Of a DNA stretch of 64,000 nucleotides, positions 16,755 to 24,105 are shown one piece after another. The translations under genes were made by a program, and so were the position numbers. Every line of letters starts with the position of its first letter. Positions within the stretch are counted from its first letter, which is position 1. The notes under the pieces were generated by a model. It searched no databases and had not been told where the DNA came from. It saw nothing but the letters and a program-made list of their open reading frames with translations. Origin of the DNA: Natronorubrum texcoconense (GTDB taxonomy: Archaea > Halobacteriota > Halobacteria > Halobacteriales > Natrialbaceae); assembly GCF_900100335.1 (NCBI RefSeq), contig NZ_FNFE01000001.1:620001-684000 (forward strand). The letters are read 5' to 3'.

Positions 16755-16867
16755 ATCGTGGCTGTCGTGGGGTGACGAGTTAAGATATCCGGCACGCGAG
16801 TCGCCGGCTGACCGACCCGACGCTCCAAGAGGGTACGCTTATCGGCCAGGCCGTGTGAGTGTCTGGT

Positions 16868-17602
16868 ATGCGAGTCACCTTTCTCGGAAGCGGCAGCGCG
16901 ATGCCGACGGGGGAACGATTCCAGACGGGAATTCTCGTCCAGGAGGGCGGCCGAACGCTGCTCGTCGACTGCGGGTCGGGCGTCCTCCACCGGCTCCAGC
17001 AGTCCGGCGTCGGCTACGAGAACGTCTCGACCGTCCTCCTCACGCACCACCACCTGGATCACGTCGCCGACCTGCTCCCGCTGATGAAAGCCCGCTGGCT
17101 CGCCGGCGAGGAACACCTCGAGATCGTCGGCCCGCAGGGAACGAAATCCCTGCTCGACGACTTACTCGAGGTCCACGAGTACATGCAGGGGAAACTCGAC
17201 CTGCAGGTTCGCGAGGTCGTCCCCGGCGAGTTCTCCGTGGCGGGGTTCGACGTCTCGGCCTACGAAACCCGCCACTCGCTGCCGTGTCTGGCCTATCGGT
17301 TCGGCGATCTGTTCACCTTCAGCGGCGACAGCGAGGCCTTCGCCGGCCTGGCGAACTTCGCCGAGGGGTCGGCGATTCTGGTCCACGACTGCTCGTTCCC
17401 CGACGACGTCGACGTCTCGAACCACCCGACACCGGAGACCCTCGGCAAGGCGTTGGCCGGCCGGGAGATCGGCCGCGTCTACCTGACCCACCTCTATCCC
17501 CACACCGACGGTCGTCACGACGAGATGCTCGAGTCGATCGCGACGCAGTACGACGGCGACGTGCGATTCGCCGAGGATCTCACGACGATCTCGGTCGAGT
17601 AG
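16868..17602 (+). CDS. metallo-beta-lactamase fold hydrolase (RNase Z-like)
   Basis: This 244-residue MBL-fold protein begins with MRVTFLGSGSAMPTGERFQTG, the usual start of RNase Z/phosphodiesterase-like MBL proteins. The metal-binding T-H-H-H-L-D-H block is at residues 59-65, a later His is in ETRHSLPCLAYRF, an Asp is in FSGDSE, and a final His is in YLTHLYPH. Likely substrates are nucleotide phosphodiesters or another ester. It lacks obvious tRNA-binding extensions, so tRNase Z is only one possibility. The ATG at 16868 is chosen. It is divergent from the alcohol dehydrogenase gene. Confidence 0.83.
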   Translation: MRVTFLGSGSAMPTGERFQTGILVQEGGRTLLVDCGSGVLHRLQQSGVGYENVSTVLLTHHHLDHVADLLPLMKARWLAGEEHLEIVGPQGTKSLLDDLLEVHEYMQGKLDLQVREVVPGEFSVAGFDVSAYETRHSLPCLAYRFGDLFTFSGDSEAFAGLANFAEGSAILVHDCSFPDDVDVSNHPTPETLGKALAGREIGRVYLTHLYPHTDGRHDEMLESIATQYDGDVRFAEDLTTISVE

Positions 17603-17747
17603 CTAGCTGACAATTAGCATACGGCTACGAATTTGGACGCGTTCGGTACTATCCTCTCCGATTCCGGATAAAGATTGACGCTCGGTCACTCATAGATGTT
17701 CTTTCGTGAGAATAATACACATGCTGACACTCGTATCCGAACAGGTA

Positions 17748-17753
17748 TATAGC
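17748..17753 (+). promoter_or_regulatory. TATA box for the RND exporter operon
   Basis: TATATA is centred about 28-31 bp before the ATG of the short upstream ORF at 17781, so the transcript probably starts at or very near that ATG. Confidence 0.6.
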
Positions 17754-17780
17754 GGGAGTTTGTAGGATCGTAACAACAGA

Positions 17781-17828
17781 ATGGTCCCCTGTACCCAGGC
17801 GGCGAATTTCGAAGAGGTGAGCGGATGA
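17781..17828 (+). CDS. 15-codon upstream ORF overlapping the RND exporter start
   Basis: The ORF encodes MVPCTQAANFEEVSG and ends TGA at 17826-17828, overlapping the exporter ATG at 17825 as ATGA. A GAGGTGA Shine-Dalgarno-like run at 17814-17820 lies inside it, 4 nt before the exporter ATG. Because the TATA box places the transcript start at about this ATG, the uORF is probably translated leaderless and coupled to the exporter. It may control or prime exporter translation. The peptide itself has no recognised function. Confidence 0.45.
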   Translation: MVPCTQAANFEEVSG

Positions 17829-20800
17829 GTCTCCCGAATCGACTCGCGGATATCGTGACGACTCACTCCAAGATCGTCATTCTCGCCCTGTTGCTGACGA
17901 CGGCGCTCGTCGGTGCGGGAATGCCGATGGTCGACGACGACTCGTCGCTCGATCAGTTCGAGAGCGAGTCGGACGAAGCCCAGGCGCTCGAGGATATCGA
18001 CGAGCGGTTCGAGTCCGAAGGTGACGAGAATACGACGTCAGTGCAAGTGATAGCCAGGGGCGATAACGTCCTCACGCAGGAGTCGCTGATCGACTCACTG
18101 GAGTTCCAACAGGAGATCCACGCGAACGAGTCGATCAACGCGACGCTCGTCGAGAACGACTCGATCACCGGCGTCGAGAACATCCTCGCGATCACGGCGA
18201 TCAGTCAAGAGCAGGCCGCTGAGCTCGAAGCGCAGGGCGCCGAACTCGAGGAACGTGAAGCCGCACTCGAGGAACGGCGCGGCGCGCTCGAGGACGGACT
18301 TAACGAGACGATCGAACTCCACAACCAGTACGAGGCCCAGCTCGCAGCCGGCGACGAGGGCGGCGCCGCGGAGACCGAAGCCGAAATCGAGGCCACCGTC
18401 GAGGGCGCAGCCGAGGCAGCCGAACTCGACGACGAGCAGACTGCCGAGTACGAGGAGATGGTCGAACAGGCTCGCGGCATCGAATCAGAGCGAATCGAGA
18501 TTCGCGAAGAGACGGACAACTACGAAGAGGATCCGGAATATCAGGAGCTGACCGAGAGCTTCGAAGACGTCTACGCCGGCGCGACGTTCGGCGTCCTCGA
18601 GGACGAGTACGACGAACTCGAGGCGGACTCCGAGCAGTTCCAGGAAGAACAGGCGGCACTCCAGGAGAACGATGGCGACCAGCCGTCGCTCGACGAGCAG
18701 ATCGAAGCCCTCGAAGCGCTCGACGACGACGAGTTCGAGGAGCTCCTGACCGACACGCTCGACGACGACGGGAACAACGACGCTGCAGCACTCGGCTTCA
18801 TGGCGTCGTCGTACGACCCCGGATCGACCCAGGCCGACGCCCGCATGACGATGGTCATGCAGCAGATGGACGGCGACGCGATGGAGATGGGCGGTGACAC
18901 CGGCGGGGTTCTCGAGAGCCAACTCGACCTTCGTGAGCTTGCTAACCAGCAAGATCAGGAGTACATGGTCTTCGGTATCGGCATCATTACCGACGAAATC
19001 GACCGTTCGATGGGCGACAGCCTCGCCATCGTCGGCCCACTCGCGCTGTTGTTCGTCGTCGTCGCGCTGGTCGTCGCCTACCGGGACCCGCTCGACATCG
19101 CGTTAGGGGTCGCCGGAATCGGTGCCGTATTGGTCTGGACGTTCGGCTTCATGGGCTGGGCCGGCATCGCGTTCAACCAGATGATGATCGCGGTGCCCGT
19201 GTTGCTGATCGGGCTCTCTATCGACTACGCGATACACGTCTTCATGCGCCACCGGGAACAACGCGAGGCCGACGGTGTCTCGAGCACCGTCCGCGGTTCG
19301 ATGACGATCGCACTCGCCGGCGTCGGCGTCGCCCTCGTCTGGGTGACCGCGACGACCGCGATCGGGTTCCTCGCGAATCTGGTCAGTCCCATCGGTCCCA
19401 TTCGGGAGTTCGGCGTCATCAGTTCGTTCGGAATCCTCGCCGCGCTGATCATCTTCGGCGCGTTGATCCCGGCCCTCAAAGTCGAGATCGATTCCCTCCT
19501 CGAGTCGCGCGGAATGAGTCGTCGAAAGCGCGCGTTCGGGACCGGCGAGGGACGGTTCACCAACGTCCTCACGCTGGGGTCGACCGCGGCGCGAAAGATC
19601 CCGGTGATCGTCCTGATCGCCGCGCTGTTGCTCACCGCCGGCGGCGTCTACGGCGCGACGCAGGTCGACACGAGCTTCGACGAGGAGGACTTCCTCGCGG
19701 AGAGCCCGCCAGCTTGGACCGAACACCTGCCGGGCGGGATGGCCCCCGGTGAGTACCAGGCCGCAGACGACCTCGAGTTCGTCAACCAGAACTTCCAGCG
19801 CGAGGACACGCAGGCCCAGATACTCGTCGAGGGAGATATAACGGACGACGACGCCTTACAGCGGTTATCGGACGCCCAGGACGAAGCCGCAGAGAGCAGC
19901 ACCGTCTACACGCTTCCGAACAGCGAGGCGGACGTGCAGGGGCCGATCTCGGTGATGGAGGAGACGGCCGCACAGAACGAGTCGTTCAACGAGTCGTATC
20001 AGGCTGCGACCGACAGCGATGGCATCCCCAACGAGAACCTCGACGAACTGTACGACGAACTGTTCGAAGCCAACGAGGACGCTGCGAGTACCGTCCTCCA
20101 CCGAACGGACGAGGGCAACTACGAGTCGGCCCGGCTGATCATCTCGACGCAGGGTGACGCCAGCTTCGGCGACACGACCGACGAGATGCGCGAAATCGCC
20201 GGCACCATCGACGTCGACGGAACCGGCGATCAGCGTAGCCTGAACGCCGGCGACGGCGAACTCAACGCCATCGCGACCGGCGATCCGATCGTCAGCTACA
20301 TCGTCGAACAGGACCTGCTCGATACGGTCCTCCAGAGTCTGATGATCACGCTCGTGGCCGTCTTCGGCTTCCTGACGGCGGCCTACTGGCTGACCGGCAA
20401 CAGCGCGACGCTCGGGACGGTAACCCTGCTCCCGGTCGCGTTCGCCGTCAGCTGGATCCTGGGGACGATGCACCTCCTCGACATGCCCTTCAACGTGTTG
20501 ACGGGGATGATCACCAGCCTCACCATCGGACTGGGCGTCGCCTACAGCATCCACGTCAGCGCGCGGTACACGCTCGAACTCGAGCGCCAGGGCAACGTCT
20601 GGTCGGCGATGCACACGACCGTCACGGGAACTGGCGGTGCGCTGCTCGGCAGTGCGGCGACGACGATCGGCGGCTTCGGGACGCTCGCCTTCGCCATCCT
20701 GCCGGTGCTCCGACAGTTCGGAATCATCACCGGGCTGACGATCGCGTACTCGTTCCTCGCGAGCGTGATCGTCCTGCCGACACTGCTGGTGCTCTGGACG

Positions 20801-20932
20801 CGGTACTTCGGTCCGGACGTTTCCTTCGAGACGTCGGGGTCGATTGCCGGGACGCCGACCGCGAGCGACGGGGGCACCGAGCAACAGACCGAAACCGAAA
20901 TAGCGGACGACGCCAGAGACGAGGGAGAGTGA
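17825..20932 (+). CDS. MMPL/RND-family exporter with coiled-coil insert
   Basis: This 1035-residue membrane protein has the two-fold RND layout: an N-terminal TM (about 18-35), a large extracellular domain, a five-to-six-TM block with GLSIDYAIHVFM, a further TM and second extracellular loop, then a second TM block with GLGVAYSIHVSA. The first block keeps an Asp in the IDYAIH motif, but the second has VAYS in its place. The first extracellular domain carries a long heptad-like, Glu/Ala/Leu/Arg-rich stretch around residues 130-240 that looks like a coiled coil. RND/MMPL proteins move lipids or hydrophobic compounds with proton motive force. The TrmB-like gene follows after 6 bp and probably regulates it. 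Confidence 0.88.
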   Translation: MSLPNRLADIVTTHSKIVILALLLTTALVGAGMPMVDDDSSLDQFESESDEAQALEDIDERFESEGDENTTSVQVIARGDNVLTQESLIDSLEFQQEIHANESINATLVENDSITGVENILAITAISQEQAAELEAQGAELEEREAALEERRGALEDGLNETIELHNQYEAQLAAGDEGGAAETEAEIEATVEGAAEAAELDDEQTAEYEEMVEQARGIESERIEIREETDNYEEDPEYQELTESFEDVYAGATFGVLEDEYDELEADSEQFQEEQAALQENDGDQPSLDEQIEALEALDDDEFEELLTDTLDDDGNNDAAALGFMASSYDPGSTQADARMTMVMQQMDGDAMEMGGDTGGVLESQLDLRELANQQDQEYMVFGIGIITDEIDRSMGDSLAIVGPLALLFVVVALVVAYRDPLDIALGVAGIGAVLVWTFGFMGWAGIAFNQMMIAVPVLLIGLSIDYAIHVFMRHREQREADGVSSTVRGSMTIALAGVGVALVWVTATTAIGFLANLVSPIGPIREFGVISSFGILAALIIFGALIPALKVEIDSLLESRGMSRRKRAFGTGEGRFTNVLTLGSTAARKIPVIVLIAALLLTAGGVYGATQVDTSFDEEDFLAESPPAWTEHLPGGMAPGEYQAADDLEFVNQNFQREDTQAQILVEGDITDDDALQRLSDAQDEAAESSTVYTLPNSEADVQGPISVMEETAAQNESFNESYQAATDSDGIPNENLDELYDELFEANEDAASTVLHRTDEGNYESARLIISTQGDASFGDTTDEMREIAGTIDVDGTGDQRSLNAGDGELNAIATGDPIVSYIVEQDLLDTVLQSLMITLVAVFGFLTAAYWLTGNSATLGTVTLLPVAFAVSWILGTMHLLDMPFNVLTGMITSLTIGLGVAYSIHVSARYTLELERQGNVWSAMHTTVTGTGGALLGSAATTIGGFGTLAFAILPVLRQFGIITGLTIAYSFLASVIVLPTLLVLWTRYFGPDVSFETSGSIAGTPTASDGGTEQQTETEIADDARDEGE

Positions 20933-20938
20933 CCATCC

Positions 20939-21700
20939 GTGACTGACGACGAGAGCGAGGCCGTCGACGCGTTCGAACGACTCGGGCTCACCAGCTACGA
21001 GGCGAAGGTGTTCATCGCCTTACACCGACTGGGGTCCGGAACCGCCCGGGATGTCGCCGACGTCACCGACGTGCCTCGCTCGCAGGTGTACAGCGTCGCC
21101 GAGAGCCTCGAGGAACGAAGCTTGCTCGAGGTCCAGCAGTCGAGCCCGATCCGCTACCGACCGGTCAGCATCGAGGAGGCCCGGAACACGCTCGAAAAGC
21201 GGTTCGAACGCGAGCAGGAACGGGCGTTCGATTACGTCGAGGGGGTCAAAGAGGAGTCGGCGACGGAGGAGACACAGGAGGACCTCTGGACCGTCCGCAG
21301 TCGCGATCGGGTCGACAGCCGGGTCGTCGATCTGCTCTCGCAGGCCGACGATCGGATCATCTTCGGCACGCGGCTGCCGACGTTCGTCACGGAGTCGATC
21401 GAACGGACCATTCGGGAGCGAGCAGCCGCCGGCGTCTCGGTCATCGTCATCAGTCGAACCGACGAGATTCGGGACCGGTTCGCCGCTATCGACGGTGTCG
21501 AGACCGAGACACCACCCGACTTTCGCGAGAGCGACGAGCGATCCGGACGGATCGTCGTCGTCGACGGGGAGAGCATTCTGCTGAGCGTGGTCGACGACGA
21601 CGGGAGCGAGACCGCGATCTGGAGCTCCGACTCGCTGTTCGCGTCCGTGCTGATCCAGTTGATCGAAGCGAGCGACCAGTTGCGACCCGACTCGGACTGA
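20939..21700 (+). CDS. TrmB-family transcriptional regulator
   Basis: This 253-residue regulator has an N-terminal winged helix-turn-helix (about 10-75; LTSYEAKVFIALHRLGSGTA and the VPRSQVYSVAESLEERS recognition helix). A C-terminal TrmB-type domain follows, with a phospholipase-D-like DDRIIFGTRL strand. TrmB proteins sense sugars or other ligands and repress or activate adjacent genes. The start is GTG at 20939, six bases after the exporter stop, so it is in the same operon and probably controls exporter expression. Confidence 0.85.
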   Translation: MTDDESEAVDAFERLGLTSYEAKVFIALHRLGSGTARDVADVTDVPRSQVYSVAESLEERSLLEVQQSSPIRYRPVSIEEARNTLEKRFEREQERAFDYVEGVKEESATEETQEDLWTVRSRDRVDSRVVDLLSQADDRIIFGTRLPTFVTESIERTIRERAAAGVSVIVISRTDEIRDRFAAIDGVETETPPDFRESDERSGRIVVVDGESILLSVVDDDGSETAIWSSDSLFASVLIQLIEASDQLRPDSD

Positions 21701-22891: not shown

Positions 22892-23863
22892 TCAGGCGTG
22901 TGTGAGATAGTTTTCGGAGCACCAGACCCACTCGTTGGCCGACGGCACGTACAGGCCCCACCAGGTGATGTCGTCACACTGTTCGGGACCGTTCATGATC
23001 TCGGCTTGGGTTCCCTCCGAGAGCGTCAGCACGACGTCGTCGTTGAGACACGGCTGCTCGCGACCGTTGAGATCAGTCGTCGTGACGACGTTGTCGCCCA
23101 TTTCGAACGTGCCGCCACCACCATCACCGCCGCCGTCGCTGTCGCGGACGAGGTCCGCAAAGTGAGCCATATCCCAGTCGGGGTACGGACAGGTTCGGCC
23201 GCCGTGGTGGAAGCTGCTACAGTCACCGTCCGGAACGTGCGTGTGGCCGATGATCCCGCCGGGTTCGTTCTGAATGCAGGTGTTACTCGTGTAGAACTCG
23301 AGGGGGATGTCGTGCATGTCGGCGATACAGCGGACGAGGTCCGCCGAGGACTCGTAGCACGCGTCGGTGATGCCGTTGTCGTCGAACCACTCGTGTTCGA
23401 TGCCGATCGATCGGTGGTTGGCGATGTATCGGGCGTGCCAGGCCGCGCGATCGTGGTGGACGAGTTGATCGACGTGGCCAGCTGAGGGTCCCTCAGTCCA
23501 GTCGTAGTTCTTCACGAGGTAGTGGGAGCTCACACCCGAGTTCGAACTGGTCAACGTGTTCAACGCGCCCTGATAGGCGCCTGCGGTCACGTGGATGACG
23601 ATCCAGTCGATGCCGTGGTCTCGCGAACTGTGATTCGCCGCCTCGACCCATCGGTCCGCGGCGTCACATTCGGTGTGTGATGCCGTTACTCGGCCGGACT
23701 GAGTACCGAGAAGCGTTCCGGTTCCCGCGGCAACACCGGTCGCCTGCAGGAACCGCCGTCGTTTCCACCGTCCATCGTCGCCGTCAGTCCGTGCCGTTTG
23801 GGAGCGATCGGTTCGGTTCTCGTCCGATGCTGCTGTGTCACGTCCAGCGCAATTGAGACACAT
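22892..23863 (-). CDS. Tat-exported peptidoglycan-amidase-like protein (Amidase_2) with SH3-like tail
   Basis: This 323-residue protein starts at the ATG at 23863, supported by a TATA box 25 bp upstream. Residues 34-40 (KRRRFLQ) form a Tat signal, followed by a hydrophobic segment. The catalytic domain resembles N-acetylmuramoyl-L-alanine amidases of the T7 lysozyme/PGRP family. The zinc ligands seem complete: His91 in IVIHVTAG, His207 in GHTHV and Cys215 in GDC, with 8 residues between the last two as in T7 lysozyme. A C-terminal region of about 60 residues resembles an SH3-like cell-wall-binding module. Haloarchaea lack murein, so it may attack bacterial walls or a different substrate. Confidence 0.82.
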   Translation of the reverse strand: MCLNCAGRDTAASDENRTDRSQTARTDGDDGRWKRRRFLQATGVAAGTGTLLGTQSGRVTASHTECDAADRWVEAANHSSRDHGIDWIVIHVTAGAYQGALNTLTSSNSGVSSHYLVKNYDWTEGPSAGHVDQLVHHDRAAWHARYIANHRSIGIEHEWFDDNGITDACYESSADLVRCIADMHDIPLEFYTSNTCIQNEPGGIIGHTHVPDGDCSSFHHGGRTCPYPDWDMAHFADLVRDSDGGGDGGGGTFEMGDNVVTTTDLNGREQPCLNDDVVLTLSEGTQAEIMNGPEQCDDITWWGLYVPSANEWVWCSENYLTHA

Positions 23864-23884
23864 GACAGCGTGTGCCACGCCCCG

Positions 23885-23892
23885 TGTAATAA
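23885..23892 (-). promoter_or_regulatory. TATA box of the amidase gene, deciding its start
   Basis: The minus strand reads TTATTACA, centred 25 bp before ATG 23863. This favours that start over an in-frame candidate at 23920. Confidence 0.55.
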
Positions 23893-24105
23893 CAGACGGC
23901 CATAGTATCGTAACTAGCATGCTAGAGATATTGTATTAATTTATATCGAATGGAAATAATTGTCAGTTGGTCTCGGACGCTATCTGGACGGTATCGGTCC
24001 ATCCCTCGAGGAAGATTCGTCTGCAGTTCGTATCGGGCTTCGCTACAGTCACGATTGGTACTGAATGGCATAGTTAGGGACGCACGGTATCTCCATAGGG
24101 AGACA

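Follow-up and report, generated by a model that had tools for sequence, protein, structure and literature searches.

How ribosomes reach the start codon of an exporter gene is the question raised by a locus of Natronorubrum texcoconense in which a 15-codon upstream open reading frame (uORF) ends on that very codon. The small frame might be translated to feed ribosomes to the exporter, it might set or sense something, or it might be there by chance. We analysed the locus in its window, the whole stretch of 64,000 nucleotides in which all coordinates below are given, and compared it with homologous loci inside and outside the host family.

The uORF, the exporter and their neighbours

The uORF (MVPCTQAANFEEVSG; 17781–17828, plus strand) runs from an ATG at 17781–17783 to a TGA at 17826–17828. 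Its stop codon overlaps the exporter ATG (17825–17827) as ATGA (17825–17828, plus strand), and a Shine-Dalgarno-like (SD) GAGGTGA (17814–17820, plus strand) lies within it, 4 nt 5' of the exporter ATG. The first-pass annotation had called the uORF, the overlap and the GAGGTGA, and all three are present in the sequence where it placed them. Further upstream on the same strand are a TATA box, TATATA (17746–17751), and a BRE-like CGAAC (17738–17742). Across 67 aligned homologs, the C at -44, the AA at -42/-41 and the T/A columns at -35 to -32 from the uORF ATG (uATG) are conserved.

The exporter (17825–20932, plus strand) is an RND-superfamily protein of 1035 aa with an MMPL domain (Pfam MMPL, E 1.3e-29; 103.7 bits against a cut-off of 20.5). 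Its best NCBIfam model is HAE3 (TIGR00921), at 197.6 bits; since this is below the cut-off of 351.9, we do not file the protein as HAE3. No ATG, GTG or TTG occurs in the exporter frame 5' of the annotated start, homologs are similar to the exporter from the Met at 17825 onward and, judged by frame and alignment, the start at 17825 is sound. A TrmB-like regulator gene (20939–21700, plus strand; Pfam TrmB PF01978, E 1.5e-18) follows, its GTG start lying 6 nt 3' of the exporter stop in the junction sequence.

Two other neighbours were recorded. A metallo-beta-lactamase-fold gene lies upstream on the same strand as the exporter (16862–17602); ribonuclease Z-like models fit it best, yet score below cut-off, and it neighbours the exporter at many loci, three of them outside the family (L200, L206 and L212). 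The product of 22892–23920, on the minus strand, matches the domain Amidase_2 (N-acetylmuramoyl-L-alanine amidase; E 8.8e-20). Peptidoglycan is not known from haloarchaea, which bears on the substrate of this protein.

The position of the TATA box allowed us to estimate where the transcript begins. When TATA-like 6-mers were located relative to downstream candidate ATGs in 464 kb of the host genome, their distances peaked at 30 nt and were mostly 27–34 nt, whereas TATATA here begins 35 nt before the uATG, as it does in the homologs. The expected 5' end is therefore at about 17776 ± 2 (drawn at 17775–17779, plus strand), not at 17781. The first-pass annotation had a TATA box setting the transcript start at about the uATG; the box is there, and the predicted start moves upstream. 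Going by this spacing, the uATG would be preceded by a leader of some 5 nt (about 3–7 nt). In a study of Haloferax volcanii, leaderless was defined as a leader of 0–5 nt (PMC4983044, as excerpted). The predicted leader is borderline to that definition, so 'near-leaderless' is the safer term, and strict leaderlessness is a property that we infer rather than regard as proven.

Conservation of frame and overlap, but not of the peptide

A search with exporter residues 1–160 gave a match in 124 of 125 family genomes, and 129 oriented upstream regions among the matches listed were examined (30 from the search and 99 fetched). We counted nine regions of MSW-type paralogs apart, leaving 120 family regions. 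In 113 of these 120 regions among the matches listed, an ATG opens a uORF whose end lies on the exporter start (109 of 110 when counted by genome, 29 of 29 by genus), whereas an ATG open to the exporter start occurred in only 3/120 and 9/120 regions in the other two frames. The same coupled-ATG test is passed by 26 of 367 sampled genes of the host genome. A count that made no use of any motif gave ATGs at -90 to -24 in a ratio of 128:12:31 by frame in the family regions among the matches listed, against 77:47:76 in the own-genome control of 367 predicted genes. The seven family regions that missed were a copy without the promoter motif (L043), one with an abutting stop (L117) and five paralog-type regions, in four of which (L139, L154, L156 and L158) the uORF stops several nt before the start.

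Anchoring on the promoter motif yielded an ATG in 106 of the 129 regions among the matches listed; the other 23 had no recognisable motif, and nine of those were the MSW-type paralogs. The ATG was in the coupling frame in 102 of the 106 (99 ending NTGA and three TGATG, among the matches listed). Read by eye, three of the four exceptions go back to a wrong choice of ATG by our script, and the fourth has a TAG abutting the exporter ATG. These 102 motif-anchored coupled uORFs, again among the matches listed, contain no in-frame stop in 1451 codons, a zero that follows partly from how the set was selected, compared to 74/1451 and 28/1451 in the other frames. They span 9 to 25 codons with the frame kept: the distances from uATG to exporter start are 26, 32, 35, 41, 44, 50, 53, 56, 59, 71 and 74 nt, all of one frame. 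For ten frame-free length changes all to keep the frame, the odds are about (1/3)^10, a rough bound that ignores relatedness. The homologs are related by descent, so that counts of sequences overstate the number of independent events. On this comparative evidence the coupled uORF is more than chance.

The SD-like sequence is also common among these homologs. A match of at least 5 to GGAGGTGATC, which we take to be the anti-SD string, was found in 81 of the 102 coupled homologs among the matches listed and in 60 of the 367 sampled genes at their furthest-upstream start; a 16S gene on which to check the string was not found in the host's own genome assembly.

We also searched for the promoter motif without using the exporter as a query. 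In a draw of 293 genomes from the order, the motif (at most 2 mismatches) was found in 42, once per genome: 41 of the 63 family genomes and 1 of the 230 others. That single outside match (G159) lies directly 5' of an exporter homolog. A reversed control pattern matched 1/293 genomes. A public genome collection gave 27 exact matches, in records of Natronorubrum, Natrinema, Natronococcus, Natrialba, Natronolimnohabitans, Halostagnicola, Halobiforma, Haloterrigena, Natrarchaeobius and Natrialbaceae only. The order draw and the public collection were pooled into 57 loci, some genomes occurring in both sets, of which the 8 without an exact motif were left unread. At all 49 exact-motif loci (49/49) the next ATG opens an ORF that ends on a start codon as NTGA. 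These uORFs have 12–56 codons; the longest include frames of 49 or 56 codons in three named Natrialba records (L223, L227 and L238) and of 47 and 56 codons in two further genomes (L172 and L173), all still ending NTGA. Such long uORFs with the overlap retained are hard to explain unless translation up to the exporter start matters.

The peptide behaves differently from the frame. In 29 non-overlapping pairs of close relatives, differences in uORF codons 4–10 fell on codon positions 1:2:3 as 73:67:62, compared to 96:52:234 in exporter codons 4–50 of the same pairs. This codon-position test detected no purifying selection on the uORF peptide in the 29 pairs. The GC content at codon positions 1, 2 and 3 was 0.57, 0.58 and 0.65 in the uORF and 0.67, 0.42 and 0.84 in the exporter; with a third-position value of 0.65 versus 0.84, the uORF is unlike optimised coding sequence. 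Its interior is variable across the 67 aligned homologs, unlike the stretch from TATA box to uATG. Some peptide similarity is seen within the genus (MVPxxQ...FE). Furthermore, the RNA of 17778–17877, the one sequence folded, was no more stable than its shuffles (z 0.06). Translation of the uORF thus appears to have been kept while its product has not.

Outside the family, 42 of 65 genomes of the order gave a match, and 30 returned loci were examined, with starts moved by our script to the nearest start codon. Sixteen of the 30 have an ATG-started coupled uORF, with unrelated peptides and differing distances from operator to ATG; the remaining 14 include four with a GTG-started uORF only and one with an abutting stop. 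Three of these 16 are less secure: the start taken for L197 is an assumed TTG, and L218 and L220 are only distantly homologous (39% and 34% identity), with 25-codon uORFs that could have arisen by chance. Only two of the nine MSW-type paralogs have a coupled uORF, and the five that were examined have neither the operator described below nor a TrmB gene. A paralogous exporter copy elsewhere in the host genome (G000:C7; L015, at ~980–1020 of that region) has an 11-codon ATG ORF whose TGA ends 1 nt before a GTG start. This ORF and those of L139, L154, L156 and L158 are possibly a second, looser version of the coupled layout.

How usual the layout is was surveyed in 464 kb of the host genome (the window and 20 further stretches), with the 367 genes called by a crude home-made prediction at the furthest-upstream start. 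In all, 46 ATG uORFs of 8–27 codons end on start candidates. Only two of the 46 also have a suitably spaced TATA box and lack a long frame upstream, namely the uORF at 17781 and one at an internal start. ATGs with a TATA box and open to the start of the 367 genes numbered 2, 2 and 0 by frame, with no excess in the coupling frame. A general haloarchaeal habit is therefore not supported in this genome: the coupled uORF with a TATA box is an unusual layout here, not a genome-wide one.

A probable operator and the TrmB-like gene

The stretch between TATA box and uATG holds the element GTTTGTAGGATCGTAACAACAG (17758–17779, plus strand), an imperfect inverted repeat that is near-invariant in the 67 homologs and that we regard as a probable operator. 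Its family-wide form is GTTTGTAGGATCRTAACAACAGNATG, also nearly invariant, and in several outside families it comes closer to a palindrome, TGTTWGTA-N3-6-TACWAACA. A best palindrome match with at most 4/16 mismatches was found in 110 of the 129 family regions among the matches listed, compared to 26 of 645 mononucleotide shuffles. In the host genome the element has a single site at up to 3 mismatches and the idealised palindrome has none, and we rejected the idea of a regulon-wide motif.

All ten genomes of the genus (10/10) carry the TrmB-like gene 3' of the exporter. Downstream DNA was available for 40 further loci, 20 outside and 20 inside the family (the exporter-end coordinate of one, L305, is unreliable). 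A TrmB match was present in 24 of the 40, and every one of these 24 has a site with at most 4/16 mismatches; of the 16 loci without a TrmB match, 12 have 5 or more mismatches and four have 3 or fewer. Because the element tracks the TrmB-like gene, a repressor operator is likely, and the TrmB-like protein is the candidate to bind it. A TrmB-family site downstream of BRE and TATA is the arrangement reported for repression in the available part of PMC4158304, and since TATA-downstream TrmB sites go with repression there, we infer that the TrmB-like protein would act as a repressor.

This locus shares with those TrmB-family repressors the TrmB-type HTH and the site downstream of TATA. In contrast, its TGTTWGTA...TACWAACA site matches none of the TrmB motifs in the excerpt of that paper (TACT-N3-AGTA, TATCAC-N5-GTGATA and TACT-N7-8-GAGTA; PMC4158304), and the target here is an RND-superfamily gene. 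The site is also unlike the CG-rich OxsR motif given for another TrmB-family protein in the part of PMC9426492 at hand. We considered that the uATG might be kept merely because it touches the operator; outside the family the distance from operator to ATG varies while the coupling persists, which disfavours this reading.

Explanations for the coupled uORF and related systems

We hypothesize that the uORF loads ribosomes onto the exporter message, and we hold this highly probable for the combination of near-leaderless entry, termination-reinitiation and a probable TrmB-type operator. Transcription would start a few nt before the uATG, and ribosomes would enter at this 5'-proximal AUG by the leaderless route that is favoured in haloarchaea. 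After about 15 codons, whose sequence would be immaterial, they would terminate at the TGA of the ATGA and reinitiate at the exporter AUG, aided by the GAGGTGA in the uORF. The TrmB-like protein made from the downstream gene would act as a repressor at the TATA-proximal operator. Start, frame and overlap are kept while the peptide drifts, and the uORF therefore most likely feeds ribosomes to the exporter. The anatomy, the conservation of start, frame and overlap, the lack of peptide conservation and the co-occurrence of operator and TrmB gene are seen in the sequences; the 5' end, actual translation of the uORF, reinitiation, the identity of the repressor and the exporter substrate are predictions. 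The first-pass annotation had proposed reinitiation from a leaderless uORF, and of this the coupling is upheld by what is kept and what is not; its strict leaderlessness is not.

The explanation that comes closest overlaps with ribosome loading in mechanism and differs in purpose: a translated, coupled uORF would lower or set exporter output by partial reinitiation, or would sense the state of translation. Direct leaderless initiation serves most genes in haloarchaea (in H. volcanii 72% of protein-coding transcripts are leaderless, according to the portion of PMC4983044 consulted), so an added step calls for an explanation. Few such layouts occur in the host genome, as the two cases in 46 indicate, and the MSW-type paralogs mostly lack both this layout and, where examined, the operator and TrmB gene. 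However, the efficiency of reinitiation cannot be gauged from sequence, and we regard an output-setting purpose as possible but doubtful. Less likely again, though worth naming, is that the uORF serves a regulated exporter operon as an ancient control element whose sequence does not matter: initiation at a 5' AUG followed by reinitiation would be imposed on every exporter ribosome and would tie exporter output to the translation machinery (initiation factors, recycling, inhibitors), as a second layer atop the TrmB-type operator next to the transcript start.

A chance ORF in an ordinary 5' UTR of 45–50 nt, with direct initiation of the exporter at GAGGTGA, is very improbable. The SD is strong and well spaced, the overlap alone is not rare given the 26 own-genome genes that pass the test, and the TATA-bearing ATGs of the sampled genes show no preference for the coupling frame. 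However, frame and overlap are kept in all 29 genera through many length changes, and we reject a chance ORF with direct SD initiation on this conservation of frame; furthermore, in Haloferax an SD within a 5' UTR gives no support to initiation de novo (PMC6728339, as excerpted). Weakest, if only slightly, is a sensing or stalling leader peptide that would control the exporter as an attenuator, which the place of the uORF at the 5' end of the exporter message and the within-genus peptide similarity would suit, but which we reject on the codon-position test and the unremarkable fold: neither a conserved or residue-enriched peptide nor, in the one sequence folded from 17778, an alternative RNA structure was found, and uORF lengths range from 9 to 56 codons.

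Ribosome loading by a coupled uORF has precedents in its parts. In the termination-reinitiation pairs of H. volcanii (Huber et al. 2019, PMC6728339, available part), an ATGA overlap is combined with an SD inside the upstream gene, and both the overlap and an SD inside the upstream ORF are found here. All nine tested pairs (9/9) were strictly coupled, and it is noted there for four of the nine that translation did not begin de novo from the internal SD (PMC6728339). Those pairs are ordinary genes, such as urease subunits and ribosomal proteins, whereas here a throw-away ORF, some 15 codons long and at the 5' end, takes the upstream place. Mycobacterial leaderless mRNAs (Shell et al. 2015, PMC4633059, as excerpted) are alike in having a 5'-terminal small ORF with an RTGA overlap; in one example among them, leaderless initiation and coupling are conserved and the peptide is not, and the study discusses an SD embedded in the upstream ORF. 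Both the RTGA-type overlap and a linkage conserved without the peptide are seen at our locus. In the portion of that study available, however, the mycobacterial case concerns bacteria, with two species compared and transcript ends and ribosome profiling measured, whereas ours is archaeal and known from sequence; what sets it apart is the deep conservation of a single locus, together with the probable operator and the TrmB-like gene that go with it. Like a TrmB-repressed operon, the locus has a gene with a TrmB-type HTH adjoining the exporter, in a predicted operon.

Babski et al. (2016, PMC4983044) reported related uORFs in H. volcanii, with 15–31 codons and upstream of ordinary genes. They sit in long 5' UTRs of 150–250 nt, 7 of 16 genes have their own start site, and the section on uORFs does not mention an overlap with the gene start. 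In the available text of a 2025 review (PMC12548453), delivering ribosomes is named as a proposed function of a short uORF. Among open-access titles and abstract openings we found no description of an operator-linked conserved uORF in archaea, which is weak evidence of absence. The mechanism is thus known in parts from mycobacteria and Haloferax, and the deeply conserved, operator-linked archaeal case is the part that is new to us.

Within these bounds the locus would be a clean natural archaeal case in which what evolution preserved is that a tiny ORF is translated, and not what it encodes, across 29 of 29 sampled genera and in homologs outside the family. It fits the view that a haloarchaeal leader bearing an SD still needs ribosomes to be delivered. 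Its natural variants, with uORFs of 9–56 codons and with ATGA, GTGA, TGATG or an abutting stop at the junction, would allow the requirements of reinitiation to be measured. Finally, it points to a class of conserved uORFs that searches for conserved peptides miss.
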